Positions 5,901 through 59,810 of a stretch of 64,000 nt of DNA are shown here, piece by piece. Where the stretch lies: contig NC_088102.1 in NCBI RefSeq assembly GCF_036370855.1, positions 69,015,601-69,079,600 on the forward strand, written 5' to 3'. The position numbers were made by a program, and so were the translations under genes. The notes beneath the pieces were generated by a model. That model did not search any database, had not been told where the DNA came from, and was given only the letters and a program-made list of their open reading frames with translations. The stretch is from Dromaius novaehollandiae (Eukaryota > Chordata > Aves > Casuariiformes > Dromaiidae). Each line of letters begins with the position of its first letter. The first letter of the stretch is position 1.

Positions 5901-8900
5901 GCAGTGAATATCGAAAGGATTTGTCCAGGGCTCCACAAGACCATGGCAGAGCTGAAAAGCCACCTCTGGTCTCGAGTCCCAGCCCAGTGCCTGAACTGAT
6001 ATGTTCCCTCAACAGCTGTGGGTCTGTCGACAGTCAGACCAGCTCTGTGTCAAGCAACCCCCAAACGGACCAGCCGGTGAACAGCCCACAACCTCAGCAC
6101 AAGCTAGAAACTATTGCTTACCTCTGAAAGAAGCCCTCAGGTATTTCAGGTGAGAAATAGGCCCGGATGTGGAGGTCTTCAGGGTGATCTCCTCCCCACA
6201 CCTCAGAAACCTCTTCGGTCTGGTTCAGGTAGGTTGGGAACAAGTACCAGGACTCCCCATGGCCTTGTGTTGCCTCCCATGGCTTCCCAGGCACAAACTC
6301 ACCGGCCTCTGGGTTGAGAGCTTCAGCCTTCCTCACTTCCAGGCAGATCTCAAAGTGCTCCAGGAGGCTGAAGAGCTTCCCTCTCCTTCCGTGGGGCTTG
6401 TGTCCCATTATTTCCTCAAAGATGTCCTGCATCCCTTCCGAATAGAGCTGGTACTTGACCAAAGCCCGCACTGCCCGGTGGCACAGCATCGCCTTCGACT
6501 TGAAGGTCCACACCCAGTTGGACCTGTCCCTGATGGTGGAGTGCTCCCCTATGAGCGTGTCCACAGAGATGCTCTCAAGCTGCTGGACCAGGCGGTACCT
6601 CACGAGGAGCTGGGTGGGAAGGAAGGGAGAGAAGGGGCTGCGATGAGAGGAGCACAGCAAAACTGCAGGCGCTGTCTACGACCTGGGCCACACGGAGAAG
6701 ACCCACACTCACCTTGAACATGCTTATGAGGAAGGTAGGCTGGAGAAAGACCGTGTTCTCCAGATGCTTGATTTCCTCATACCATATGATAAGCCCGATG
6801 CGGTGGAGGTACCGCAAGATATCCTGGAGAAGTTCTCTGCCCAGGTTGGCCAGATGCTCTCGATGGGAGAGTTTGCTGAGGAGGTACTGGAGGTCCATCA
6901 TGCCTGGAGGCAGGCACAGGATTTCAAACCATATCTCCTAAGCCAGCAGTCAAAGGCAGACACTTTACAGAGCCAACAAACGCAAGCAATACCGCATGTC
7001 AAACAGACCATGCCGTCCCTAGGGTAGCAGCTGGGACCAGAACGCTGCTCAGTGGCTGCGCCCCAAAACGCTTTGCCCACCCTCAGCCGTCCCACTGTAG
7101 CAAGGCAGCTGACGGCTTGCTAGAACCTCAGCAGAGCTCCCGAAAAACGAGGCTAACACTTTTTTCAGTGTTTCAAAGTGTAGGCTTGTTTCTAGCTAGA
7201 AGATCTTTGACTGCAAGTTAAATGTCAGATTGTCACTAGTCATGCGGAGAACATACGGAGACAGGCAGCTATATGTGGAACTGAATACTTGGGCTTTTCC
7301 CCTGGAAGGAAAGAGCTTGCTTTGCCCCCTCTGATCCTGCAGCAGCCAAGGGAGCCAGAGAGAACAGCAAGTTTTGGTGGTGTTCATACCGCCTGCTTTA
7401 GGTATGTAAGTGCAGAGGCAAGGCTGCCTGTGAAGCCACGGGAGAGACGGAGGAGGGGCTAGACCTGGTCAGGGGCACTAAATAAGGTTAGCAGGACACT
7501 GGTTTGAAAACCAAACAGAAGCATTGCTTTTCACAACGCGCACTGGAGCTGTGGAGCTCCCTCCTGCAGGACATTGGGGATTTTAAAAGCTTGTACAGGG
7601 CCGAGGGGGGAAAGAGCAAGAGTTAATGAAAAGAAATGTACGGACAACTGAGTGCATCAGGGCACACCAAGCCGCAGATCGCCAGATGCTGGCAGAGCCT
7701 TCAGGTGAACGAACGCTTGTCCTTTCTTTATGCTTCTCCCTAGACGTCTGCCTTTGGGGCAGATGCTCAATAACACCGCTCAGACAGGACGGGTCCTCTG
7801 AGTCCGTGTAAAAGCAATCGTAGCGGCTCGCCCCCAGGTACCACCTCGCCTAGGAGCTCTGAGCCAGTCCTGAGCTCAGCCTTTCTCAGCTGGCTCCGGA
7901 CAGACTTTGCTCGCAACTTGGGGCGCAAATAGCACAACCAGAAGCAGGTAAGGGGACTACTCCAGCAATAACGCTGCAGATTCGCGTTACTGCCCCTCCA
8001 GGCAAGAGGGGCCAGCGGGTACCGAGACCAGACAGCCTCTCTCACCGGCGGGCCAGCAAGGCCCCTGCAGGGAGGTGCGGGGGACGAGGAAGGCGCCGCC
8101 TTCTCACCGTGATCTGCCATCTCCTCGCTCTGCGCCACATCCACAATCGCGGCTTCCACTTGCCTGTAGACGGGGGGCAGCACCCGGACAACCTCGGGAA
8201 AGAGCTCCTCGTTTCTCACGTGCTCCAGAATAACGGCTTCGAGCTTTTTGATATCACGGTGATCGGTGCAGTTGACAGGAACGCAGTCTAAAACCTGGAA
8301 CAGAGGAAGCACGTGCCTACCAAAAGCGAGTCCGGCAGAGGCCTCCACGGTGGTCGGGGCGCTGGAGGGAAGGTGAGGTAAGGAGGCTTTTTTGCTTTAA
8401 CCTGCGAGGTGAAGGGGGGGACTAGCAGCAGCCGCCTGGTACTTGAGAGGTTACTGCGAAGGTGGAGCAAGGCTCTTTACGGAAGTGCATGGCAGGACGA
8501 CGAGAGCCAAAGATCATACGTAAAACAGCAGATACCTAACTCGACAAGGAAACCTTTTTCCCCGTGGGGTGAGCCACGCACTGGAACAGGTTGCACAGCG
8601 AGGCTGTGCCGTCTGCATCCTCGGACGTTTTCGGGACCTGGCCAGGCAAAGCTCCGAGCTTGCTGGTCTGAGTTCACCACCGACCCACCTCAGAGCAGGA
8701 GGTCGGCCCGACACCTCCTAACGTCCCGTCCCGCCGGGGCTGCTCTGTGGTTCCACAATAACCGACTGGCAGGAAGCAGGGATGGGGAGCTGCCCACGCA
8801 CGGAGACATGTCCAGCTGGACGCTGTATCCCCGTCACGGGAAGGGCACCTCCCCGTGTCTCTAGCTCTCTAGCACAGTCCACAGAAAGGCAGCTACCTGC

Positions 8901-11900
8901 ACCCTGTGGCTTGCAAGAGCCTTTTTGCAAGTCTTGTTGCAAATGTCTTGTTAATATTTCTCTCCTTCGAAGAGCCAAAGGAGATATTCCGTCACACAAC
9001 AAGGAGTTAATCTGCGTTACTCCCTGCTACAGGACTTCAGGATGCTCAATGCCTCAGGAAACCAAAAAAGGAACACTGCAGATTTGTGAAAGAAAACCAA
9101 ACCAAAACAAAAAAACACCCAAGCAATCAAAGAAAGCATACCTCTCCCGAGGCGTTTGCTACAAGCCACAGCCAGAGCGAGCCCGGCACAAGAAGTGACG
9201 GAGAACCACCGGGAGTGACTGCCCTGCTGTTTGCGTGCCCAGCTGTGGGCAGTTGCCACTTCCACCTCAGCCACACAAGCAGCTGCAGGCAACAGCCCGA
9301 CTCATCGGCAACGGGCGACTGTCGCTGTTAACACGCCAGGCTGTGAGCCACAACAGCCTGGGCACGGGCACCGTTCTGCTGCCACAGCAGTGGGGTCGGC
9401 AGCTGCTGCTAGAGGTGAAAGCAGGCAGCGAGGAACCACCGTGGCTTCAGCCACCCTGCTAAACCCACCTAAGAAGGCAAACCCAAACCCCGAGAGCTTG
9501 CCCAGCTCCCTTACGGCTGCAGCAAATCTCTGCTGACCTCAGCCCTACCGTTAACGTGCAGTTCTCCATCTCCTTCAGCTTCTCCCACTGGTCCACGTAA
9601 AATTCGGACTCCTCGCTGCCTTCCAGGTTGTTGATGAAGTGAGAGAGGTTGTTCTTCCTCTCCTCCAGCATGGCCGCAATCCTGGACATGATGTCGCACC
9701 TCTTCTCCTCCACTTCCCCCTCCTGGCAACAGTCGATGTGGGTCCCCACAGGGAGCACCACCGAGTTTGGCACGCGCATGAACAGGTTGTTGATCCAGAA
9801 ACCCACAAGGTCCTTGAAGGCATCATCAGTAGTTTGGTACCTGCGGAGGGAGCCGGAAAAAAGAAAATCCCACGCAATTCACAGCCACCGCTCTGAGTCT
9901 TCAGCCAGCTCCCACCAGCGCAGGCCTAATGCGATGCCCTGCGTTGTCCCAGGGATTGACTAGAGAAAAGCCCAGATCATCTCTAAATGTTGCCATGGGC
10001 CATATGCAAGCCCAGGGCTACCAGTTTCCTCTCCCTAAGCTAAGCTGGCTAAAGCTGGGGGCTGTAGCAGAGTGGCTCTGCTGTGGAGGAGAGCATCCCT
10101 CTGCATCAAAAAGCCCAAGCCTGATGCTCCTTCTGCTTTCAGGGCTCACTAGAAGAGAAGCGAGGGCTTGTAGAGGTACTTTCAATGCAGAAAGCAGAGG
10201 TGGAGACCATTTAGACTGGGGTAAGTTCTCACATAAAAAGTCAATACTTCCCTAACCTCTCAAAACAGAGGGCTTAGGCAAGGTGCTGACAGATCTAGTG
10301 GTTTAATAAAAAGTGTGATCTCCAGGAAGGGGAAGCGGGGGAGTTAGTTACTCCGGTGGAGAAAAGAACAGACGTCTAGGTCTCATGGACTGAACCAGAG
10401 CAGAGGGAAGAGTCCCCAACCCAGACTTGTTTTTCTCCTCCCGCCCACTATGAATTCAGACCTGCACAGCACTTACATATGGAGATTGATGACAAGAATG
10501 ACGAGTGCCTGCGGGGTGATGAACACATGGTGAGTCATGTAATACTCCAGCTGGCCAGCAAAGTCCCAGAAGAGAAAAGTGAAGTCCTCGATCCGGAACT
10601 CGCTGATCTCGATGCCAACTGTTCGCTCTTCCTTGGGCACCAGTTTGGTTTGCCCCTGCTTCAGGCTTTTGCAAATGGTGGATTTTCCTGCCAGCGAAGC
10701 CCCCAGGAACATGGTCTTGACCCTCTTGTCCTCCTGCCCCGAACAGTCTTGCAGCTGCGTGAAGTAATTCAGGATCTGCTGGATGCCACCGGCACACACC
10801 TCACTGGGAGGCTCCTTGAGCGGGTTCCCGTTGGCCTTGAACATTTTCAGGGACTGCCCCTGAAACAGCTCCCTGGGGAGCTGGCGAAGAGCATTGTTCT
10901 GCACGTGGAGCTCTTGCAAGCTCGTCAGCTGCAGGACAGGCTGGGGGAAGGCTCGAAAGAGGTTGTTGGACAGGTTGAGATACTGGAGGCTGCCTTGACA
11001 CGCTGCCAGGTCCCTGGGGAGGGCACAGAGGCGGTTGTTGTTCAGCCGCAAGTGTTTGAGCCTGGAGAGATGGGAGAAAACCCCCTCCGGAATGACCCGG
11101 ATTTGGTTCTGATTCAGCTCAAGCTTCTCTAAATAGACCAGGCTCTGGATTTCGTCCGGAAAGTCCACAATCTCATTCTTGGACAGTATCAACTTCTTCA
11201 GGTTGCAAAGCTTAGAAATGCCGGCGATGTGTTTGAGCTTGTTCCTGTCGAGGTCCAGGCTCTCCAGCACGGGGTTGCTCAGGACTGCTGAAGGCAGCAC
11301 CCGCAGCCTCTGCGTAGAGAGCGTCACTTCGCGCAAACCCTCCGCCTGCTCCTGACCTGGACACGTGGGACAGGAAAGGCAGTTGAGGACCAGGTACCGC
11401 ACACTCGGCCGTCGGCCTGCTTTCTTGCCTGCTGGGAGGGAGACTTGCACCCTTACGATGGCAGACCGCTGGTTCCTTTGAGCTTGTCACAGCTTTCAGA
11501 TCATTTTGCCCAGTGAGAGAAAAGCAGAGGCCAAACAGAGGAGCTGTTTGAACAGCACGGCCACAGCTTGGGGCTCAACCTGCTGCTTGAACAACTCCTG
11601 TGCGCTCTCAGGAGAGCAGGACAAGCAGAGGCACGAGGGGCTTGGCTGGGACTGAGGACACTGGGAGCAGCAGGGGAAACAGTGCCCATCAGATTTTGAC
11701 CAGTAACCCAGGAGCCACGTTATCGGCTTTTTTCTCATTAAAACACCACGGGAGCTCCAGCAGCAGACGCGTCTCATCTGAAGACAGCAGTTTTCCGCTC
11801 CCAGCACGGGGCTGGCAGGGCAGAGCTGTTCCCAGTAACTGGCCGAGCCAGCCCCCACGCTGCCACCCACTCCGGGGCCCAGACCGCAGCACGCAAGACG

Positions 11901-16211: not shown

Positions 16212-40338
<24,127 letters not shown>

Positions 40339-43287
40339 GGCAGGACATTGGGAACCAGCTCCCTGTAAGAAAGCAGACTTCAGTGAGACCACGTACAACC
40401 TAAATACGCACAGTGCTGTTGGCCCAGTGGAGAGCGACCGGTGCGCCTGAGGAGACACGAGCGGTAGAACGGACATCACTCCACTGCCAAGGCCCCCACC
40501 CAAGTCACTTCTTTATCTGTCAAAGACTAGGGGTCCAGACTGTCCAACTTATTCCCAGCTGGTAATTACAGTGGGCCTTTCTGATTCTTCCTCACTGGCA
40601 ATAGCCTTCTGGCTGAAAAACAGCATTAGCAACAGTACCATGGAAAACCGAAGCAGAACTTAACCAGGATTTAACCACAAGAGTATTGAGCAATCACCTT
40701 TAAGCACTGCTCTTTTTCTCCCCCTTGAAACACTCTTTCTGACTGCAAAGCTTAAGTTAGATTTATGGCGGACTCTGGCTTTGTGCTGCTGAAAAGCAGT
40801 TATTACCAGGAATAGGAGGAAGAAAATCATTGATCTGTTTTCCCAGTGCAAATCAGAGGTGACCCAGAGATGAGTGCACCTCTTGTTCAGTGAGGTTTCA
40901 GATCACTGCTGAGCTAGGTGAAACCAGCCACTTGCTAAACTCAATTTACGTGCAAGATTCAGCTTTACCTTGTGCTCCTGCGTATCAGAAAAATAGGTAA
41001 CCAAATCTCCATATCTAACAGGAATTCCTTGCTTGCCCCTGGAAGTCAGAACAGAAAACCTGCAGACACCAAAACCACCCTGCACAGTACCTATAGAGCG
41101 CGCAGCTGGAAGGCACCAGAAGTGACTATGCCTTTTGACAGAGGCCAAACTCTTGTATACTCTTCGCTTCAGAATCAGAGTTTACATGCTGTACACACCA
41201 GATGACAAAACACATTTCAAATCATCAAAATACTACCTTGCTCAGATCAAAAGAGAGAGGGAGGAAGATGAGGCTTTTTTTTTTTTTTTTAATATACACA
41301 CAGGCCTTTTCACACCTCTGTCACGAAATACAAAAGTCTCAGCTCTCACAACCATCACTCCACAGGAAGGAGGAGACTCGACGTGGTGCATATTAACGCA
41401 GTCAAATGAATCGCTGTGCATCGGCACAGGCTGGCAATAAAACCAACAGTCACCGAGACGTCTCATGATTGAAATGCATAACGACAATCAAACATAGACT
41501 TTAATACACAGTGTTACAAAGGAACAAGGACCACTGTAACCTTCTATAAGCAAGTCACAGGTTAATTTAATTGACACAGAGCCAAATGTCACGTCTTAAT
41601 AAGAAAAAGAAATGGGATTCTTCTACAAATGTGGCAGTAAATTTTCAGTCAGCTGCCTGTTCTCCCACTCTCCTTGCTCCACATCGCATATCTCCATATT
41701 AAAATAACTTCTGGAACAAAACATTATGTTTTATTCAAATGCTCTTGATGCATATCTTTACTTGCTCGCTCCCTTTCTGGGCCACATAGCACAGCTCTAC
41801 GCTTAAGAGCCTTAAAAACGCACTTAAAAATTCACTAAACCAGACTAAACTGTAAATGGACTCTAACGCTCAGGAAAAAAAAAGCTGAAAAGGAAAAAGA
41901 GAGGGGAAAAAAAAAAGCTTTAACACAGCCAGGTTCTTCGTGAAGGTTTCTCCCGACTTCATTGAGAATCTTGCCTAGACAGATGATTAAGCTTTTAGCT
42001 ATACTTGTGACTGTTAACAGGAGTGTTTAAGGACAATTTGTGTAGGCTGGAAACACTCAGATTCACCAAAACCCAGTCATTCTGTGATGTAACTGGAAGG
42101 ATAGGAAGAAACACTCATTTCCATTAGGAGTTTTTCAAGTTTCAGCAGCGCGTGTATGAATTATTCAAACTGAAACTAAATTATATAATACGCTCTCAAA
42201 TGCTAAACTAGTTACAGTAGCAGAAAATTAATTGCAGAGTTACACCTAAGAAAAGTCAGGGCAGAGATTGACCACATCAGTTTGACGGCACGACACTGGT
42301 AGGCATATTTCTGATGCACTTCACAAAAGCTTCTGCAGCACCAACTCGTATTTACATTGTGCTGAAAACCTTTGTTTATATCTGTTCTCCACTTTAAGGC
42401 TGCGAGAATATAGCGGTTTCCTGTTTGACTGTCACTGCCGCACTCACCACAGGTACGGAACCACAGATAAGGCTTCGTTTTGGCTAACATGAGGATCTTC
42501 GTCCCCCTGCTCCTGAATTCTCACTAAAGCGAAGAAGTAAGCGCTACAAGGAGAGTGAATAAAATCACTTTTATGAAATTTTAAAAAGATGAAGTTCTGC
42601 TCAACATACGCCTTTCGTAAAAGATCCCGAAGAAGTCAGATAACTACAACTCCAAATTGCATGCATTTATTCACTTCACTGCTGTGGAATAAAACAACTG
42701 CTTGCACCACAAAAGCCCATTTTCTTCTCTCTGCTACTTCACTAAAAGACATCCTTCAAGCACAGAGACATAAAAATCAGCACTTCTGACTTCACAATCT
42801 GATCTGACATACTTATGCTGCAAAGGCAAACTTGTACTTTGCTCATAGGCAAAAGTCAGAGTTAAAGAGAGTCCGGTATCACAGCAAGCAATCAAGTGCT
42901 CAAGTCCAGAAAAGTCTGCTTCACAAGGAGTTTGGAACAGACGGAGAGAAACCAACCATGATAAACTGAATTTAAGGTTTAAAGCTTCAAACAGTGCAAA
43001 TACAAATCTAATTCCATGAACAAGCTTTTCATAACTGGGCAGCTGCTCTTAAGAAATGAAGAGGGAAATCAAAGTTGACTATACACATTAAAAAAAAGAA
43101 CAAGTTACCATATTAAGAACAATAAGCAGCATGTCCGAGAGTTTTTCTTCTCATGGGAGACATTTCAAACAAACTACCACTATGACTCTGAAACACAGAC
43201 ATTTATGATGTACTTCAGAGAGTTCACCCACTTGTATAAAAAAAACCAGCACTTTCATTACAGCATTTATCACATCAAAATCCTCCT

Positions 43288-46300: not shown

Positions 46301-46827
46301 ACACCTCTGTGATGTGTCACCAGCACGCCCACACAGCAAACACCGCAAGAACTAATAACCGCAAACTAACCCTCCACCTCACCGACACCGAGCATCGGAC
46401 ACACCTCCGCGCTTGGGAGACACGCATCACTGAGCGCAGACACCCGGACAGAAAGGTCTTAAGAATGCGTTTTTCAGTCTACAAACACTTTTGCAATGAG
46501 CGATACTAAGTGATTCTGTGAATAAGTTAAGTTGCATAACAAAAGCCTGCACAAAAACCCCATTTGTACAGGGAAGCCGAGGTGTCCGCCGACTTCACCG
46601 TGAGGCAGTAAGTAGTCCATAACTTCTTAAAGCACACTCGTGAGCAGGCTACAAAAAGCAGAGGGGGGAGGAGAACCAAACAAACAAGCCAAAAAGCATT
46701 TCCGTGACCTACTAAGCCGTGTTTACAGCAGCTAAGTCAGCTTGCTGCTGCGCCTCCCCGAACCGCGCCGGGCCCGGCAGCGCCTGGCCTTGCGCCTCGC
46801 CTGCTCTCCCGCCGCCACCTACTTCGG

Positions 46828-46926
46828 GGAAATAAATAAATAAATATATTTTTAAGTTCTCTCTCTCTATATATATAGATACATATACGTATGCAACACA
46901 TATATAAATAAAAATAAATAAATACA
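46828..46926. repeat. AT-rich simple repeat block inside a CpG island
   Basis: (AAAT)n, a (CT)n/(TA)n tract and a second (AAAT)n in about 100 bases, flanked on both sides by GC-rich DNA. Confidence 0.85.
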
Positions 46927-46929
46927 GGC

Positions 46930-47500
46930 AGATACAGAGAGCGGATAGCCACGGCGCGGCGGGAAGCCCCCTCCGCCGGGCTCCGCACAAGCCCGGCCCC
47001 GCCGCAGGCCCCGACCCGGTAACGCGGCTGCGGGCGGGGACGGAGGGCACCGCCGCGGCCCCCCGCGCCGCCCCCGGGACACTCACGCGAGGAGAAGGCC
47101 GCAGCGCCACGGGCCCGCCGCTCACCCAGCCGGGCGCCGCCGCCCCCCCGGGATAACGGGCCGGCCGGCCGGAAGCCCCCTCACCTGGAAGTGACCCGCA
47201 GCGCTTCCGGGTCGCGCGCGCCCGCGCGCTCAGGCGGGGATAGGCCCGCGGGGCTGCACCACCGCGCGCGCGACAGGGGGGGAGGCAGGCGGCGGCGCGA
47301 ACCATCGGGCGGCGGGGGAGGCAGCGCCGCAGGGCGGAACCACTGGGAGGAGGGGGGGCGGCGGGCCGTACCACCGCGGGGCGGCGGGGGGGGCTGGGAG
47401 CCTCGGCGGTGCCCGGGCGCCACAGGCCTGTGGGCGGCAGCGGCTGCTGGAGGCCGCGGTGGCTTTCCTCGCTCACAGGGCTGGCGCTACCTGCTGAGCA
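46930..47500 (-). promoter_or_regulatory. PHRF1: PHRF1 promoter and non-coding exon 1 in a CpG island
   Basis: A CpG-dense block. On the minus strand a strong splice donor (ACTTCCAG/GTGAGG) ends an exon whose lower edge is 47185. Two CCGGAAG Ets cores flank it (near 47169-47175 plus, and 47204-47210 minus: CCCGGAAGCG). No TATA box is apparent. The transcription start is probably within 47.2-47.4 kb; its exact position is not visible. Confidence 0.65.
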
Positions 47501-47850
47501 ACGCAGAAAAGGGGGAAAAAACACACAAACACTTTTTTCAGGTCAAAGGAGGCGCGGAGACAGGCTCGTTCCTTCGCAGCTTACAGGCGCTCGCTTTCCT
47601 CCCCCAGTTTTCCTGCTGGGGAGCCCTGCCCCGATTGCTAATTTAACCCATCGCGCCCGCGCCGCTTATCGGCACGCATCCCGGATACATCCCGTGTCCC
47701 GGCCTCCGCAGGTGCTGCCCACGCCCCGGGGCACGGCCGCCTCCAGCCCCAGCCGCGGTTATCCCCACGAAAACCCTGCGCCAGGCCAGCGGAGCACGGC
47801 TCCCCCCTCCCCGAGACACCAAGGGAAAGCGGAGCCCCGCGCCAGAAAAA

Positions 47851-48104
47851 TACGTGCCCCCGGCTGAGGACACGGCTCCGTATTAAATACTTCTTTAAGG
47901 CAACTGGGATCGCGGCTGATTTTTTTTCCCCCCCTCCTAAGCGCGTAGCTGCTCTCAGCACAAATGTTCCCGCTCGGGCGGGTGACCGCACGCACGTAAA
48001 GCTCTTCCCCACCTCGTGCGTTAGTTCAACGGCTGCTTTCTGCTTGTCCCGAAGGCCGGGGGGGAAGGAGCCGGGCCTCGCTCCCGCTCGCACAGTTACG
48101 TGCG
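47851..48104. promoter_or_regulatory. Hypoxia-response-element cores, distal pair
   Basis: TACGTGCC at 47851-47858 and TACGTGCG at 48097-48104 match the HIF core RCGTG in its strong TACGTG form. They lie between the PHRF1 promoter and the miR-210 promoter. Confidence 0.4.
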
Positions 48105-48539
48105 CTCCAGCCAGCGCAGGGCAGAAACACGTCCCTTTTCCCCCAAAAAAGCACCGAGCGGAGTGACACCCGGGCCGGCGTCGCGGGCGAAGGCGCCGCC
48201 GTTGACGCATCCGCTGGCGCTCGGAGGGCGGGAAAGGGGCCGGGAAGGATGGGGAGAGCCTGGGGACACGGAGGCACCGGGATTTGGGGCAGGTTTTTGG
48301 AAGAAACGCGGTTCCCCAGGGTGAGGTGCGAAGAGGCGCGGTGCCCACAGGGGAGGATTTGGGCAGGATTTGACAGTGTTTTTTTTTTGGGGGGGGTAAA
48401 TCGGGAAAGGGGCCGTTTCCCCAGCAGCCCCACGGCTCTGGGGCAGCCTCCTTTCCCCCACGGGGCCGGTTCCTAACGCGGGGGTGGGGGGGGGGGCTGC
48501 CGCACCGCGAGCCGCGCGAGCGCAACTAAATTAAAACCT

Positions 48540-49242
48540 GTTAAATTTCAAATAGAGAAGCGGCCGGTGACCAACGGCCGCCGCGAGGCACCGCGCGCCC
48601 CCAACGGCCCCGGGCGCCGCCAGCGCCCCCTCCCCCCCACCCCCCCCCGCGCCGCCTACGTGCGCCCCGACACTGCCCTGATGGCACGGCCCCGGCGGAC
48701 CGTACCACCGCCCGCGCGGGGGGGGTCCCGCGGGGAGGGGCGGCCAACGGCCGGCCGCGCGAGGCCAGGCGGGGAGGGAAGCGGGGGGGGTGGGAGGGGG
48801 CCGCGGCGCAGGCTGAGCGGGGAGAGGGGCGGGGTGGGGGGGGCGGGCGGGCGGCGGTTCAACAGGTACAAATGGTTCCTCCCCGCAGCACGGACGTGCA
48901 GAAGCGAACGCGCCGCGCCCGCCGCGGCCGCGGGCGGCGGGGGGGAAGGGGCGGGCGGCGCCGGCCGCGCCACCGCCCGCCCCGCCGCCGCCGCCGCCGC
49001 CGCGGCGGGGCGGGGCCGGCGGAGGTGGGGCGGGGCGGGGCCGGCGCGGCCATTGGGCGGCGCGGCGCGGGGGCGGGGCCGGCGGGCGGGCGGGCGGCGC
49101 GGCCATTGGCGGGCGGCCCGCGGGGGGCGGGGCGGGGGGCCAGGGCGCGCGGCGTGGGCCGGGCCGCGGCAGAGCGAGAAGTTGGCGGCGGCGGCGGCAG
49201 CGGGGGGGGGGGAGCGCGGAGCTGCGCGGCGGCGGAGCGCAG
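48540..49242 (+). promoter_or_regulatory. miR-210 host-gene promoter (CpG island) with HREs, NF-Y and SP1 sites
   Basis: Extremely GC-rich, with many GGGCGG boxes. Two inverted CCAAT boxes (ATTGG at 49052-49056 and 49105-49109) are each followed by GGCGG. HIF cores: TACGTGCG at 48657-48664 and GACGTG at 48893-48898. A strong plus-strand donor (GCGCAG/GTGAGC) at 49242/49243 ends the inferred first exon. Mammalian MIR210HG is likewise divergent from PHRF1 and HIF-induced. The start site itself is inferred to lie at about 49.12-49.2 kb. Confidence 0.6.
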
Positions 49243-49250
49243 GTGAGCGC

Positions 49251-49299
49251 CGGGACGGGACGGGACGGGACGGGACGGGACGGGACGGGACGGGACGGG
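49251..49299. repeat. (CGGGA)n pentanucleotide microsatellite
   Basis: Nine perfect CGGGA units plus a partial one, beginning eight bases after the host-gene splice donor and about 140 bases before the miR-210 hairpin. Confidence 0.95.
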
Positions 49300-49440
49300 G
49301 CAGGGCAGCCCCCGTGCGGCAAGAGGGAGCCCGCCCTGGGGATGGGGCTGCGGGCGGGGGAAGCCGTCGGGGCGCCCCGCCGGCACCGAGCGCCCCCCGC
49401 GACACCGGCCCCCGCTGCCCGGCGCCGCCGTCGCCCTCCA

Positions 49441-49519
49441 GGAGCAGGTGAGCCACTGACTAACGCACATTGTGCTCTCGGCGACCCCACTGTGCGTGTG
49501 ACAGCGGCTAACCTGCTCC
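49441..49519 (+). ncRNA. MIR210: miR-210 precursor hairpin
   Basis: The hypoxia-induced microRNA that targets ISCU, EFNA3 and other mRNAs in vertebrates. The 3p arm (49490-49511) begins CTGTGCGTGTGACAGCGGCT, identical to human miR-210-3p over those 20 bases. The 5p arm (49451-49472) begins AGCCACTGACTAACGCACAT, resembling the fish-type 5p arm rather than the human one. The lower stem is a perfect 9-bp pairing of GGAGCAGGT (49441-49449) with ACCTGCTCC (49511-49519), extended by AGCC/GGCT. The loop is GTGCTCTCGGCGACCCCA. It lies between RASSF7 and PHRF1, exactly as in mammals and in the same relative orientation. Confidence 0.97.
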
Positions 49520-49551
49520 TCGGACACCGCTGTGCGGCCCCCGCCGCCCCG

Positions 49552-49621
49552 CAACGGCCGCCAACGGTCGCGCGCGCCCGCCGCAACGGCCGCCAACGGT
49601 CGCGCGCGTGCGCCTCAACGG
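49552..49621. repeat. 32-bp tandem repeat carrying five CAACGG motifs
   Basis: CAACGG at 49552, 49562, 49584, 49594 and 49616, with spacing 10, 22, 10, 22. This is about 2.2 copies of a 32-bp unit (CAACGGCCGC, then CAACGGTCGCGCGCG). CAACGG fits the MYB consensus YAACNG. It starts 33 bases after the miR-210 stem. Confidence 0.85.
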
Positions 49622-51441
49622 CCCTCGCCTCGACGGACCTCGCCTCGCCTGGCCCGGCCGGGGCCGCCACCGGGCCTGGCCGCCCCATCGGGGCGCGGAG
49701 TCCTGCACGTCGCCGTCGCCGCCGGGCCCGCGGGCGCCGCCGGAGCCGTGAGGGCGGTAAGGGCTGCGCGAAGGAGAGCGCGTTCATTGCCTCCCCCCCC
49801 CAAACCCCTGCTCTTCTCCAAAGTAAATAAACGCTAATGGTCGCTGTACCAAACTAAGAGGCGCTTTATCCCCGCGCTGACGTCCTGATACCCAGTCAGT
49901 GACTAACTGAACTGCCATTGCCAAGGGTGTGTTAATAGGAGAAACCATGCCTGGTATTGCCCGGGATGAGTCACCTTTAAAGAGAGACTCCACGAGCTGT
50001 TGAACCAAAAGCAGAACCCAGCTTCACTTTCCGTTTCTGTTGACGTTTTGCCTCCCTCCTTACCGCTCACCTTTGCTGGCTGCTTCTCTGCTTCTTACAT
50101 CGGGGCTCTCTCTCGGCTCTGGTCCCGGGCGGGCGCCAGCAGAAGCAGATCCGTGCAGGATCGTGCCGTGATGTGACATGGGGGACTGTGACTTCAGACA
50201 AGCAGGAAGGCGAGCGAGCGGAGCAGGGACTCCTCCAGCTGTGCGGGGCAGCTGTCACCAGAAGCGGAGGAAGTGATGAAGCAAACTGCTTCTCGTACAG
50301 CGTACTCGCTTCTGATTTTGTGCCGCTAAAGGAGCTGGGTAGTTGAAAAGCATCTTGTTACAGCGTGGCACAGCTTTACCCCCTGCTTCAGCTAATAGTA
50401 ACCAGCTAGGCTTTGCAACGGCCCTCCAAGGCTTTCTGAAACGGCCTGGGTGTTCTCTGGCTTGCTTGGGCTGCTCAGGCGTTACCGTGGACCGTTGTAC
50501 GGGCTTAATCTCATGAATGAATCAAAGGGCTCTTCTCAGTAAGCAGTCAAGTCAGAGAGGCTGAGCAACACCCTCTACAGATAAACCCTCACAGAAATGT
50601 TTCCCTTGTCCCCCGTGCGCTGCCTGCGCCTGTTTGATGTTTTCCTGTTGGGTCCCAGAGGAACATCTGCTCTCCAGAAAGGAAAATCAATTCCTTCTGT
50701 GCCCTGAGCAGCCTAGGTGAGTCCAGGATGCTCAAACAGACTAGAAAGGGAGGAAAACTGCTGGAACTTGTGAAAGCTGCTTTCACGGTTGCTCAATAGC
50801 TAAGGGGGTCCTGTCTGAGGGATGGAAAACAAGTTGTGAGCCTTCCCAATCCTAGAAGGCTTTCCTCTTCCCTGGCTACACCTCCAGCCTATTTCTGCTG
50901 CTAATCTCCAAGCGGGCAGGAGCTCTGGTGTAGCTGTATGGAAAGCAGGGAGAGGGGGAAACCTGGTGCAGAAATACTAGTACCTGTATATTAGCATGTC
51001 TGTATTAATGCTGTATCTGCAGGTTGAAACTTCAGCCCTACAGTACCATACTACCTTGTTCCACGGGTAACTGCACATAACAAACCTGTACCTGACAATG
51101 AAGGCGCTCTGTTTCTCTTGAAAGAAATAGCACTGCATTTGGTACTGTGCTGCCTGATGGTTAACCCCTGGCAGAAATGTCTCCATAGATGTCCTGGTTG
51201 CTCTGGCAAGATTTGTCCCCGTCCCCATCAGGCAGCAGCACTGTGGTATAAAAACTTCCCGCTGCCTATGGAACCATCCTGTACAGTTCCAGTAAGGCAA
51301 GGCATTGAAATGAAATTTGTTTGTTATTTCTTTCCTGTATCTCTCTCCCGTTAGCAGGGGAAGCATACGGCCGAATTCCTGTTTTAACATTCTTGTGGTA
51401 TGATTCAAGACTAACCTGCTGTGCTGTCAACTGAAATCTTC

Positions 51442-51447
51442 AATAAA
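51442..51447 (+). terminator. Poly(A) signal, likely end of miR-210 host transcript
   Basis: AATAAA in TTCAATAAATACTGC, with a downstream GT-rich element (GCGTTTGGGTGTTC) about 20 bases on. Confidence 0.55.
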
Positions 51448-51465
51448 TACTGCAAAACCAGCGTT

Positions 51466-54400
51466 TGGGTGTTCATTACTGTAACTCAGGGTTCAGCAAA
51501 GAGCTGGGCGGGTCCATAAGGTGTGCTTAAGTTACCCCAAGCGGCTGAAGAGGAAGGCTGTACCCTCCCAGTGACATTTCTGATGTGTATGGCATACAGC
51601 GTCGATGCCATCTCTTATTTTGTCTCTAGAGCCAGTCGAGGGTGGCTTGAAAAGGAGGGGGGACGGTAACCGTGCTACCTGGTCATCTCTCAGGCCGACA
51701 CACCGGTGCTGCTGCTCTGCTGCCCTAGGGCTGGGGAAAAGCCCTTGCTAAATGAGCCTGCTGAACCGTAGCTGCTCTGCAGAGCGCTCCCGAGACACGG
51801 GAGGATACTCCAGGGCTAAGATGCCCCTTCGTTTACGCGTTCAGCTTTTTCAGTAGCTCCTTAACAGATTCTGTAAGCTGATACCTACCACTCGGGTGCT
51901 AAAAGCTCTTGCTGAGAACTGGTGCTGTAAGATTTTGAGGAGGGGCAGAGGGTGCCTGACAGGAGGGGAAGATGCTGGAAGTTAGGCAGGTTCAGCTGAA
52001 AGGATTCTCTGCGCTCTCAAAAAGATTTTGGTCTTTTATTTCAGTGCTTCATCAAGGGAGCGAGCAGCCTTAACTGCACTCGGACACGCGTATCCCGCTC
52101 TGTTTATAACATGGGCCAATTGCAAATCCTGAGCTGTGAGCCTCGCCGAAGGAGAAAGCTAGCCTGTTAGGAACAGGGCTACATAAATTGTTCAAGAGTC
52201 GGAGGAAGTCAGTTAGTTAAATGCAAGCGGGGACTTATATAATACATCTTTAAAAAAAAAAATCTGCTGGCAGGAGGTTCCATTGGGAAAGAAACTTGCT
52301 CATCCATAAACAACAAAATTTCCCGACCTCCTCTAGTGCTTTGTGATTTTTTTTTTTCCAGGGCAAGGTAGAGCGTTGTTGGTCTTCACCATGATGGGGG
52401 AGAGAGACACAGAAAGGAAAAAAATCACCATTATGAGAGCAGACAATGCTTCCCTGCGCGGACACGCAGATGCGCGTGCATGCCGACTCGGATATCGTCT
52501 CTCCCCCGGCTGCGGGGAGCTGCCCTTCTGGGATGCGTGCACCCAGGAGCGATAAAGCAGCGCATCTGTACAGCACTCGGAGACCAACAGGCATTTTCTC
52601 CTCTACTTGTTCACACCTTTTCTTACGTAACTGGTGCTGAAGCGTGTGCTTTAAAAGCTTTAAAAAGCCAAAGCCAGGGGCTGGGAGTAAGCACAAATGC
52701 TTCCAGCACTCTAGATTAAAACAAAGCAAAACAAAACCCACCATCCAAATAAGAAAGAACCGATGCAAACACAACTACCAGGAGGAAGCGTTTCGGGTAT
52801 TTGCAGCTGTGTTACCCTCCCGAAACCATACTGGCCCAGTGTGGTGTTGGTACCCTAAATAACAGCAGCTGAGAGCGCGGGGGGGGGGACGCCTGGCATA
52901 ACGAGCGGACACAACGTGGGGTAGACGGCCAAGAAACCGGGAGTGAGTTTCGTTCACGCATTGTTATTGGAAACAACCCCGGGGAGGCCGGCAGTGCGGG
53001 AAGCGGACAGCTGCCCAAACGGAGCGGCCACGTACCGCGGCCCGGTGGTGAGGGCCGGGAAGCGGGAGGGCCCCAGCAGGTAAAGCTTGCGCCCCAATAA
53101 ACCCTGCGCTTTCCGTGGGGGGAAGCGATCCCGGGAGGTGCAGCGACCTGGGGCAGTGCTGGCTGCCGTCGCGGGGGGAACAGCCCGGCGATGAATTCAC
53201 GCAGCCGCCAGCGCGGGGAAGCGGGACGCCCTCCTGCGCGGGGGGAACCCGAGCCCCGACGCCGCGGGAGCATCCCCGCGCTGGGGCGAGCCGGCGCGCC
53301 CAGGCCACCATATACGCTTGGATCGGTGCCTCGCTCACCACCGCACGGCTAGGACGCCTCGTACGCTGGGGTTTGGGTTTAAGAAAAACTCTGCTGGCTT
53401 TGTTTTAATCTCGTAACAATGAGTAATTTCTTCCTACCGCTCTGTAGTGGCCTAGAAAAGGACAGCATCATCTCCACTGTAGCAAGAAGGCTTCTCCCAG
53501 GGCATAAAATTTTAATTAGGAACAATCGTGCAGCCTTGAAATGGGAATTGCAAGCAGCAAAAGTCAAATCATCAATAAAATATTCAATGGCAGAAATGCA
53601 TTATTGACACGGCCTCGCGAGCAGCTAAAAGCGGAGGGGCAGAGCGCTGCGGCCGGCGAGCCAGCACACGGCGGGTCCCGAGCCCGGGGAGCGGGGCCGC
53701 CCCCGAAGCGCGGCATTAATATAGGTCACGGCAGCTCGGCAGCGCGGCGTGGCCCTGCCGCCGGGTGCGGTGTCCCCGCTAGCCGGCCGTGCCCCGCTGC
53801 GCGCGGTGCCATCGTGGGGCAGGAGGAGAGGCATTAATCAAAGTCATTTATTACCTTATTAAACTCAACTGCCTTTGCAGCTGCCGGACGACGTTTTATA
53901 GAAAACCCCACAAATTAAAAACAAAACAAACCCAGAAAACGCCGCTGGCAGGAGGCGAGGCGTCTGACACGGCGAGCTGGCAGCGCTGTTTTGCCCTTTG
54001 CGCCGGCGCTGGTTTCCCACACACAGCCCCATTGTTAGAGCCGCACAATAGGAAACGTCGCGCTCGCCAGCGCGAGCCCCGCGCGGCCGCCCCGGCGACC
54101 CGGCCGCGGTGCCCGGGGCTGAGCGGGCCCTGCGCTGGTGGGTTGGGGGGGACGCCAGCCCCCGCGCCGACCCGGCCAAGAGACGCTCTGCTTCCCGGCC
54201 CCGCCGGCCGGCGGGGGGTTCCCGCGGGCGCCCGGGACAGGGGATGATCTTGCAGTAGCAGCAAAACGCAGGGTCAGCACGGGGAGCGGAGGCCGGCGGG
54301 ACGCCCCAGCCGCGGGGAAACGCACGGGGACAGCGGGGCCGGGGGCTTTCTGCACTTCACAAGTCGCCACGCACCAGCCCTGGACGCTTCACGCGGGCAC

Positions 54401-57116: not shown

Positions 57117-59716
57117 CTACCTCCAGATGCTCTGCCTGGATGACACGACTGCAAGACACAAAAACAAGCCGCGGTGACCCCGGCGGATGGACGGACGGGC
57201 GGACGGGGGGCCCGCGCGGAGGTACGCACCTTCGGGGCTCAGGCTGGGCACCAGGGGCTCCGTCAGGTGCCTGGGGTTGCCGAGGGGGCCGGCTCGGAGG
57301 GGCGAGTCGGCGCCGGCGGGCGGAAAGCCTGGGGGACAAGGAAACATTTCCCGGCTCAGGGACGGCGGGTCCGGCCGCGACAGGGCCGCCGGCACCACGT
57401 CTTCCCTTCTCCGCGTCCGAGCTCGGCCCGGTCGGGAAAGGGCGGAGGGCGAAGCCGCGCCGTCCCCAAGACGGACCTGCGCTTGGGGGGGCAACACCAC
57501 CATCCCTGGGGCCACGGCAGCTTAGACGCACAGAAGCAAAAATAATAATAAAAATCACAATCTGGAGGCAAGTTTAAGCGTAGGGAAGCCGGGGCGCTCC
57601 CGCGGCCCCCGGCCAACGCGGCCCCCAGCTCCTGGGCTGCCCGGGGCCTCCCCCGGGCGCTGACCTCCGTGTTGCTGCTGGGCCAGCAGCTCGCGGTCGC
57701 CGCGCTCCGGCAGGGCCTCCTCCTCCGGCCGGGCCGGCGGCACCGTCACCGTGGCTCCGGTCTGCTGGATGAACTGCTGCAGGTTACACTGCCGCAGCTC
57801 CTTGTTCAGCTCCTCCAGCTCCTGGTTCTGGGCCTGCAAAACACGAAGCGGGTCAGCGGCCCGGCACGGGGAGGGATGCTCTTCCTCCTCCTCCAGACCC
57901 CGGGGCACCGGGAAACCCCAAAAGCCAGCCAGCACCTCCGGGAGGTACCGTCCAGGGAGGGCCTGGGACCCGCGCGGGTGCTGCTGGTGGCCCTGGATCA
58001 CTTGTGGGCCCCGAAGCACCGCTAACGGGCCCTCCATGCCGGAAGGAGACCTCTTCTTGAGCCCCCTGGGATTGGGGTCTTGGGGCTGCCAAAACGCTGC
58101 GCAAGCAGGGCCAGCTTTCTCCTGGCCGCCCCCAGCCAACCCCTCCCAAGGGCCCGCTCTCCCCGCCGGGAGCTGCTGAACCGGCCCGGCCGTACCTGCA
58201 GGTTCCTCTCTGCTTCCTCCAAGGCCTTCTCCACGCTGGCCAGGTTGCTCTCCAGCTGGGTGCCCTGCTTGACCTTGGCCTCCAGATCCCTCTTCATTTT
58301 GGCAGCCATGTCCTCCAGATCCGCGGGGCTGGGCCCGGGGGCCTCCCTGCCCTTCGCGGCCCTCTCGGCCATCTCCCACTGGATCTCCTTCTGCAGGGCC
58401 TCCGTGCGGGCAGCCAGCTCGTAGATCCTCTGCGTGTAGTCCTCCAGGCTGGCCCGCAGGCTCCTCACCCGCTCCTGCCTCTCGCGCTCGCACTCCTTCT
58501 CCAGCCGCAGCTCGCTCTGCCAGAACTCCTCCTCGCCCAGCTCCGCCTCGTTGCGCCGCACCAGCTGCTCCAAGAAGAAGATCTCGTCCTCCTGGCTGGG
58601 GACCCGGCCGTGCTCCCAGAGCCGCAGGTCCGTCTCCAGGGAGTCCCCGTGGGCCTCCAAGGAGCACAGCCGCTCCTGCTGCCGCAGCACGGTCTGGAAC
58701 AGCTCCTCCTTGGAGGGCGGGACGGTGCCCGCGCTCTCCGTCAAGTCCATCCCCTCCCAGGCGCGTGCCCTCCATCGGCCCTTGGCCACCAGCTCGCCGG
58801 AGCCCACGGGGCCCAAGTTGAAGGTCATGGCTTTCCTCGGCTCCCGGGAGCGGGGCACGTCGGTGCTCGCGGGCCTGGGTTTGACGGGCAGGCTGGCCCG
58901 GACGAACGTCCTCTCGGGAGCCTGGGGAGCGCCGTCGGAGGCGGGCCGCTCGGCCACGCTGGGCCCCGTGCGCCGCAGGACGAACTGCACGTCGTGCGCA
59001 TACTGCCCGCACTTGGCCAGCGACTCCAGGGGACACTCGAGCGGCAGGAGCTGCCTCTCCTTCTCCCGCAGCTTCTGCACCAGGACGTAGCGTCCCGTCT
59101 GACCTGGGGAGGGGACGCGAGCACGTCACCCGCGCAGCGGGGCCACCAGCGCCGAGGGCCGCGGCGCTTCCACCGCGGGCCGAGGCAGAGCCCGCCGCGC
59201 CGGAGGGCAGCTCCGCTCGCCGCCGGGCGCCCAAACACGGGCCCCGAGCCCCGGGGCACAGCGGCACCGGCGCGGTTGAACCCCCTCGCGACCCCGTGGA
59301 GAACCGCTCGCGCCCACCACCCCGGCCGGGGAGGAAACACGCTCCGAGGAGATTCGGAGGTGCAGAAGGGACTTTCTCAGTATTTTTGGAAGGGGTGCGA
59401 GAGGAAGGAGGGGAGCAGAGGGCTCCGATTTCCATGGCCGAGCCCGAAATCCGTTGCCAAGACCCCCCAGCTCCAACCGCGCGTGCCAACGGCAGAAGAG
59501 CACTTCAAGTCTAAGCCACTAGACGGCAGGATCGGCCGCGGCACGGACGAGGCCCCCGGGACGGACGGCGAAGCCGCGGCGGCTGCCGAGCCCCAGCGCG
59601 ACGGCCCGCTCACCTATGGCCCGCGCCAAGGCGATGACCACTTCTTGGCAGGTGGTGTGGTGGGAGACGCCGCAGACGACGCGCTGGATGCCGTCCACCC
59701 ACACCTTCAGCTCCAT
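57117..59716 (-). CDS. RASSF7: Ras association domain-containing protein 7
   Basis: N-terminal RASSF-family protein; in vertebrates it acts at centrosomes and microtubules in mitosis and restrains JNK signalling. Five coding exons in consistent phase, 436 residues: 59614-59716 (ATG at 59716), 58196-59103, 57665-57833, 57230-57328, 57117-57148 (TAG at 57119-57117). The Ras-association domain spans about residues 3-90 ([40 protein letters not shown]). A long charged coiled coil follows (about 165-380), with heptad Leu/Glu/Arg patterns such as [20 protein letters not shown] and [16 protein letters not shown]. The tail is proline/glycine-rich and ends SSRQSIWR. It is slightly longer than human RASSF7 (373 residues), mostly in the linker and tail. 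It converges with the miR-210 host transcript, as in human. Confidence 0.94.
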
Positions 59717-59810
59717 GCCGCGGCCGCCGCGGGGTCAGGCTCTCCGGGACGGCATCGCGCGACGGAGGCCCCGCGGCGACGGGGGAACGCCGCCTCCGGC
59801 CCGGGCTGCC
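59717..59810 (-). other. RASSF7: RASSF7 5' UTR exon segment
   Basis: Non-coding sequence directly upstream of the ATG, starting after a plausible acceptor GTCTCTTGCAG (AG at 59812-59811). The true first exon would lie further right in the GC-rich region. Confidence 0.45.

Follow-up and report, generated by a model that had tools for sequence, protein, structure and literature searches.

A Probable Functional miR-210 Gene in the Emu, with Both Mature Arms and Candidate Hypoxia-Response Elements

Introduction

miR-210 is a small RNA that animals use in the response to low oxygen, and the locus described here shows that a bird retains this main hypoxia microRNA in full, in a mammal-like neighbourhood and in very G+C-rich sequence. 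The DNA analysed, referred to below as the window, is a stretch of 64,000 nucleotides from the emu, Dromaius novaehollandiae (contig NC_088102.1, assembly GCF_036370855.1), and all positions are counted from its first letter. In line with a bird, the genome carries three lysozyme pieces on contig C1 with 75–80% identity to a presumed hen lysozyme, and a fourth, on C2, with 49%; a search for COX1 yielded four partial matches with stop codons, on C1, C2 and C10, and no mitochondrial contig. A preliminary description, made from the letters, had proposed that the window contains a miR-210 hairpin. In our view the emu gene is real and intact, very probably working, and ordinary in kind. Avian miR-210 is not in itself new, since it has already been published in chicken, sparrow, pigeon and flycatcher; what is added here, mostly by inference, are candidate hypoxia-response elements of the form TACGTGC, seed sites past the ISCU stop codon, and the observation that mammalian changes in the 5p arm fall mostly on unpaired positions that fish and bird share. 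Two questions are thus made testable: the function of the 5p arm outside mammals, and the existence in birds of a hypoxia-driven promoter common to PHRF1 and miR-210.

The Hairpin and Its Family Assignment

On the plus strand, 49437–49533 scores 80.7 bits (E 9.3e-19) with the covariance model of the mir-210 family (Rfam RF00679), for which the cut-off is 50, and the match extends over model positions 1–96 of 96. In a search of the 64-kb window this was the sole family to score above its own Rfam cut-off; beyond two mir-210 rows, six weak Rfam matches at 40–60 kb were all below cut-off and were treated as chance.

Within this match, positions 49441–49519 of the plus strand are predicted to fold at −43.0 kcal/mol (z −6.56), a value as low as which was reached by none of 200 dinucleotide shuffles and by none of 2000 stretches of 79 nt taken from the window at matching G+C, the lowest of which stood at −42.6. 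The clean 79-nt hairpin with a 9-bp basal stem that had been claimed is borne out to the nucleotide, with exact coordinates and nine consecutive basal pairs, and folding the wider stretch that had been suggested, 49430–49530, again gives the hairpin with its flanks (z −4.68; 0 of 200 shuffles as low). The predicted structure is single and unbranched, an apical loop at 49473–49489 (plus strand) separates the arms, and the predicted Drosha and Dicer ends leave the 2-nt 3′ overhangs of a canonical miRNA. The setting had been described as one of extreme G+C content, which is correct for the surroundings (75% at 48001–50000) and incorrect for the hairpin itself (62%).

The 19-mer CTGTGCGTGTGACAGCGGC, which forms the core of the 3p arm, occurs a single time in the window at up to three mismatches (0.02 expected). 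Taken together, the shuffles, the GC-matched stretches and the rarity of this core exclude a chance hairpin. The exact 3p 20-mer had no occurrence in viral contigs and prokaryote genomes, as expected. The Microprocessor motif CNNC is expected near +16 to +18, and a copy, a weak motif match, does lie at +16 from the 3p end (49527–49530, plus strand); however, others follow the 3p end at +2, +5, +7, +14, +24 and +27, seven in total within 30 nt, and because CNNC is so frequent here these motifs have little evidential value.

Mature Arms and Their Published Counterparts

The predicted 3p arm, CTGTGCGTGTGACAGCGGCTAA, occupies 49490–49511 of the plus strand and carries the mir-210 seed UGUGCGU, and the predicted 5p arm, AGCCACTGACTAACGCACATTG, occupies 49451–49472 of the same strand with the seed GCCACUG. 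A match to human miR-210-3p over at least 20 bases had been claimed, and it holds against what we take to be the human form: nt 1–20 are equal, and nt 21 is A in emu and G in human. The human hairpin, in the form we assume for it, can also be aligned with that of emu through the loop and flanks.

The likeness to chicken rests on printed mature arms, all 22 nt of the 3p arm agreeing with the gga-miR-210a-3p primer given in PMC11209236 and the 5p arm being letter-identical to novelMiR_332, obtained by small-RNA sequencing of chicken cells (PMC9876980). The latter study, from 2023, filed this exact 5p sequence as a novel miRNA, and the term mir-210 is absent from its main text. The fish-type 5p arm of the preliminary description proves apt, as zebrafish dre-miR-210-5p (MIMAT0003392; PMC3994061) agrees with the emu 5p arm at 22 of 22 nt in a comparison that covers the 5p arm only, and both a flounder primer (PMC8871525) and the miR-210 of miiuy croaker given in the review PMC9941745 are letter-identical to it. 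For the small-RNA check suggested in the preliminary description, these published chicken and fish products served as proxies. gga-miR-210a-5p is reported in chicken by PMC12455797 and PMC7565416, the second of which also uses another chicken name, gga-miR-210b; a second locus that could correspond to this name was not found in the emu genome by family search.

Among other birds, PMC4636775 describes miR-210 in the white-crowned sparrow, along with counterparts from pigeon and flycatcher, and gives the mature sparrow sequence as 100% identical to human, whereas the emu 3p arm departs at nt 21. The same paper reports bird miR-210 as missing from miRBase v17. It had been suggested that miR-210 is easy to miss in birds, and the record points both ways: the gene is not generally missing, as the gga-miR-210 name is established in the chicken literature and the sparrow, pigeon and flycatcher sequences stand beside it, but the miRBase v17 gap and the listing of the chicken 5p arm as novel in 2023 give the suggestion some support. 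In a text search on missing avian genes, none of the three papers found contained the term mir-210.

Control Region and Host Transcript

The hairpin and its inferred promoter lie in a CpG island at 46601–50500 (G+C 0.69, CpG observed/expected 0.97); by the criteria applied, the stretch from 12.2 to 52.7 kb has no other island. Of the seven copies of TACGTGC, an extended form of the HIF element, in the window, four are packed into 0.8 kb inside this island (47851–48663). The four copies, at 47851–47857, 48097–48103 and 48657–48663 on the plus strand and at 47992–47998 on the minus strand, are candidate hypoxia-response elements (HREs), and GACGTGC at 48893–48899 (plus strand) is a weaker candidate. 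None of 1000 shuffles of 47451–49450 reaches four copies (mean 0.04), a comparison to be read with the fact that the motif was picked post hoc; when it is placed among the 32 heptamers NRCGTGN its Poisson probability is 3e-7, and that of the next best is 0.03.

RCGTG, the plain HIF core, is not enriched upstream (10 observed vs 6.8 expected, with as many in 139 of 1000 shuffles); within 1 kb upstream of the hairpin there is only one TACGTGC (31 of 1000 shuffles have as many), and none lies 3′ of the hairpin at 49520–52519 or near the inferred transcript start. By density of the shorter ACGTGC, at 1.54 per kb, the mir-210 island ranks third among the eight islands counted (nine listed). ACGTGC also occurs in the epo element of fish and mammals (PMC4642629), and a review describes the miR-210 HRE as conserved across species (PMC12533067). 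In rat, the decisive HRE that drives the miR-210 promoter lies upstream, at −63 relative to the transcription start (PMC5655194); at the corresponding position the emu locus has just GCGTG, at 49152, and no TACGTGC. A mammalian NF-kB site lies about 200 bp upstream of the stem-loop (PMC10742176); by the pattern GGGRNNYYCC there is none at about −200 in emu, and the matches within 1 kb upstream are just those at −721 and −72, both of them palindromic G/C runs.

From motifs we infer a start site and a first splice donor for a host transcript. Two ATTGG (inverted CCAAT) boxes in GC-rich sequence, at 49052 and 49105 (49052–49109, plus strand), suggest a core promoter, such that a non-coding plus-strand transcript would start in the CpG island at about 49.15–49.2 kb, and CAG|GTGAGC at 49240–49248 (plus strand) is the putative 5′ splice site of its first exon. 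As the hairpin lies about 200 nt 3′ of this probable donor, it would be intronic or early in the transcript, like the mammalian host RNA: human miR-210, at 11p15.5, is found in an intron of the non-coding AK123483, and the human stem-loop is likewise given as intronic in a non-coding RNA in PMC10742176. Directly after the putative donor there is a tandem repeat of CGGGA (49251–49300).

The same donor-like 9-mer, CAGGTGAGC, recurs in the base of the hairpin at 49445–49453 (plus strand), where its function is doubtful. Were it a 5′ splice site, the miRNA would be of a splice-site-overlapping or mirtron-like kind, with splicing set against Drosha at the hairpin base, a competition of the sort described in PMC8465124. 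The 9-mer is one of three in the window, both strands counted, and the Rfam consensus at that place, CAgggcAGC, has no GU. However, an identical 9-mer is available 205 nt upstream, at 49240; the copy in question sits inside the predicted basal stem; and the 5p arm sequenced in chicken begins AGCC, which is the predicted Drosha end, three bases past the GU. We regard such an overlap as improbable, and processing as an ordinary Drosha-dependent hairpin as the reading to be preferred.

Gene Neighbourhood, Strand and Copy Number

On one side of the hairpin lies a RASSF gene at 57555–59734 (minus strand), recognized by its Pfam Ras-association domain, whose nearest solved structure is that of RASSF8 (2cs4, deposited as C12orf2). 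By sequence the paralogue RASSF8 is possible: the main piece of the gene has 40% identity, 169 bits, 52% positives and 23% gaps against a presumed human RASSF7 sequence, and 36% identity, 154 bits, 58% positives and 10% gaps against a presumed human RASSF8 sequence. Because RASSF8 offers more similar residues and fewer gaps, the name RASSF7, which we consider the likelier of the two, leans partly on the adjoining PHRF1.

PHRF1, on the other side at 17663–40362 (minus strand), is identified by Pfam RING families and by likeness to a presumed human sequence, its lower limit having been set by eye against the latter. The RING exon lies within 37969–38274 (minus strand), with Pfam RING families over cut-off, and a large SR-rich exon can be read within 19323–22217 (minus strand). 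This exon, of 965 aa, is 59% identical across 153 aa to a stretch of a presumed human PHRF1 sequence and had no match in Pfam or the PDB, and a regular expression for the PHD finger found no match in the gene. The exon with the start codon (40248–40362, minus strand) has a 3′ splice site before it, which implies a further 5′ exon upstream; judging from the layout of the island, the first exon of PHRF1 is probably in the same CpG island as the miR-210 transcript and head to head with it.

The hairpin, on the plus strand, thus lies between two minus-strand genes and opposite to both. In human and other mammals miR-210 is, we take it, placed between RASSF7 and PHRF1 on the opposite strand, so that the claim of a mammal-like gene order and orientation is upheld on that assumed order. 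Farther out, an IRF-3 family domain at the left end of the window probably belongs to IRF7, and between it and PHRF1 the minus strand at 6121–11486 carries a ROCO-type gene, recognized by leucine-rich repeat and Roc domains that exceed their cut-offs and by a COR-A match that falls short of its own; this gene is presumably not part of the human order.

The strand also bears on the possibility that miRNAs are made from both strands. The minus strand at 49427–49523 scores 49.2 bits against RF00679, just below the cut-off of 50, and has a predicted fold of −54.2 kcal/mol (z −5.63), but any hairpin's reverse complement should itself fold and gain some score, and no antisense miR-210 is named in the passages cited here. 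We consider a product from the minus strand very improbable, and a plus-strand gene the appropriate reading.

A mir-210 family search of the whole genome (1.468 Gb in 271 contigs) found this place, on both its strands, and no other. Scoring covered 53 of the 435,244 initial candidates, so a diverged second copy could escape; within that search, of window and genome alike, no second mir-210 copy was found. It is hardly credible that this sole copy is a decayed or silent remnant without a product since all 22 nt of the 3p arm equal those of chicken, all 22 nt of the 5p arm equal those of both chicken and zebrafish, and the covariance score is far above cut-off across all 96 positions.

We consider it very likely that the locus is the functional miR-210 orthologue in a bird. 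The hairpin, the identity of its arms with RNAs sequenced or annotated in other species, the flanking genes, the single locus in the genome search and the seed sites past the ISCU stop codon are observed, whereas the start site, splicing, HIF control, processing and silencing in emu are proposed. In the mechanism that we envision, the upstream HIF sites would turn the gene on, Drosha would cut the host transcript at 49451 and 49511, and Dicer would then take off the loop. Both 22-nt arms would be able to load Argonaute, the 5p arm in the form shared with fish, and the 3p arm would silence messages such as that of ISCU in low oxygen.

Seed Sites past the ISCU Stop Codon

ISCU is a known target of miR-210 (PMC4880005) and is the only target tested here. 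About 100 nt past the ISCU stop codon in the same genome there are two seed sites for miR-210-3p, an 8mer, ACGCACAA, and, 11 nt on, a 7mer, ACGCACAG (locus L008, reverse complement 1910–1928). In the 9,991 bases searched, these are the only copies of ACGCACA in sense orientation, and the opposite strand has one. At the rate observed in the window, the chance of at least two copies is 6e-5 for a stretch of 200 nt, 4e-4 for one of 500 nt and 0.007 for one of 2200 nt.

The 5p Arm in Birds, Fish and Mammals

The preliminary description had contrasted the fish-like 5p arm with a mammalian form and placed the change on the mammalian lineage. Mouse 5p, AGCCACUGCCCACCGCACACUG, differs from emu 5p at nt 9, 11, 13 and 20, and human 5p, as we take it to be, differs at nt 5 as well. 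The proposal survives in that four changes are common to mouse and human, but the form quoted as mammalian is specifically human, as mouse lacks its seed change, A5 to C. That the 5p arm changed on the way to mammals would be the simplest reading from a comparison of few species, drawn from birds, fish, mouse and human.

In the predicted structure 5 of the 22 positions of emu 5p are unpaired and 17 paired. The human changes, again with the assumed human form, fall on four unpaired positions and one paired (Fisher one-sided 0.003), and those of mouse on three unpaired and one paired (Fisher 0.024). As the unpaired positions are also equal in zebrafish and bird, there is a hint, suggestive only, of selection on the 5p product outside mammals.

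Some published work is consistent with this hint. Targets of the 5p seed have been tested by luciferase according to the fish review PMC9941745, RASL11B is reported as a target of miR-210a-5p in the hen study PMC12455797, and a 5p target analysis in the mouse study PMC4848794 gave no significant results. The one paper found in a literature search for arm switching of miR-210 does not use the term. A bolder reading, which we entertain tentatively and think rather unlikely, is that fish and bird miR-210 is a two-product gene, the 5p arm itself being under selection at paired and unpaired positions alike; mammals would have given up the 5p arm and kept the 3p, and the bird gene would share its CpG island and HIF-site cluster head to head with PHRF1, both being driven by low oxygen.

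The mature duplexes of bird, mouse and human are predicted to be about equally stable, at −23.3, −23.4 and −22.5 kcal/mol, respectively, that of mouse having been computed with the presumed human 3p arm, and in the predicted duplex the mammalian arms pair in a partly shifted register.
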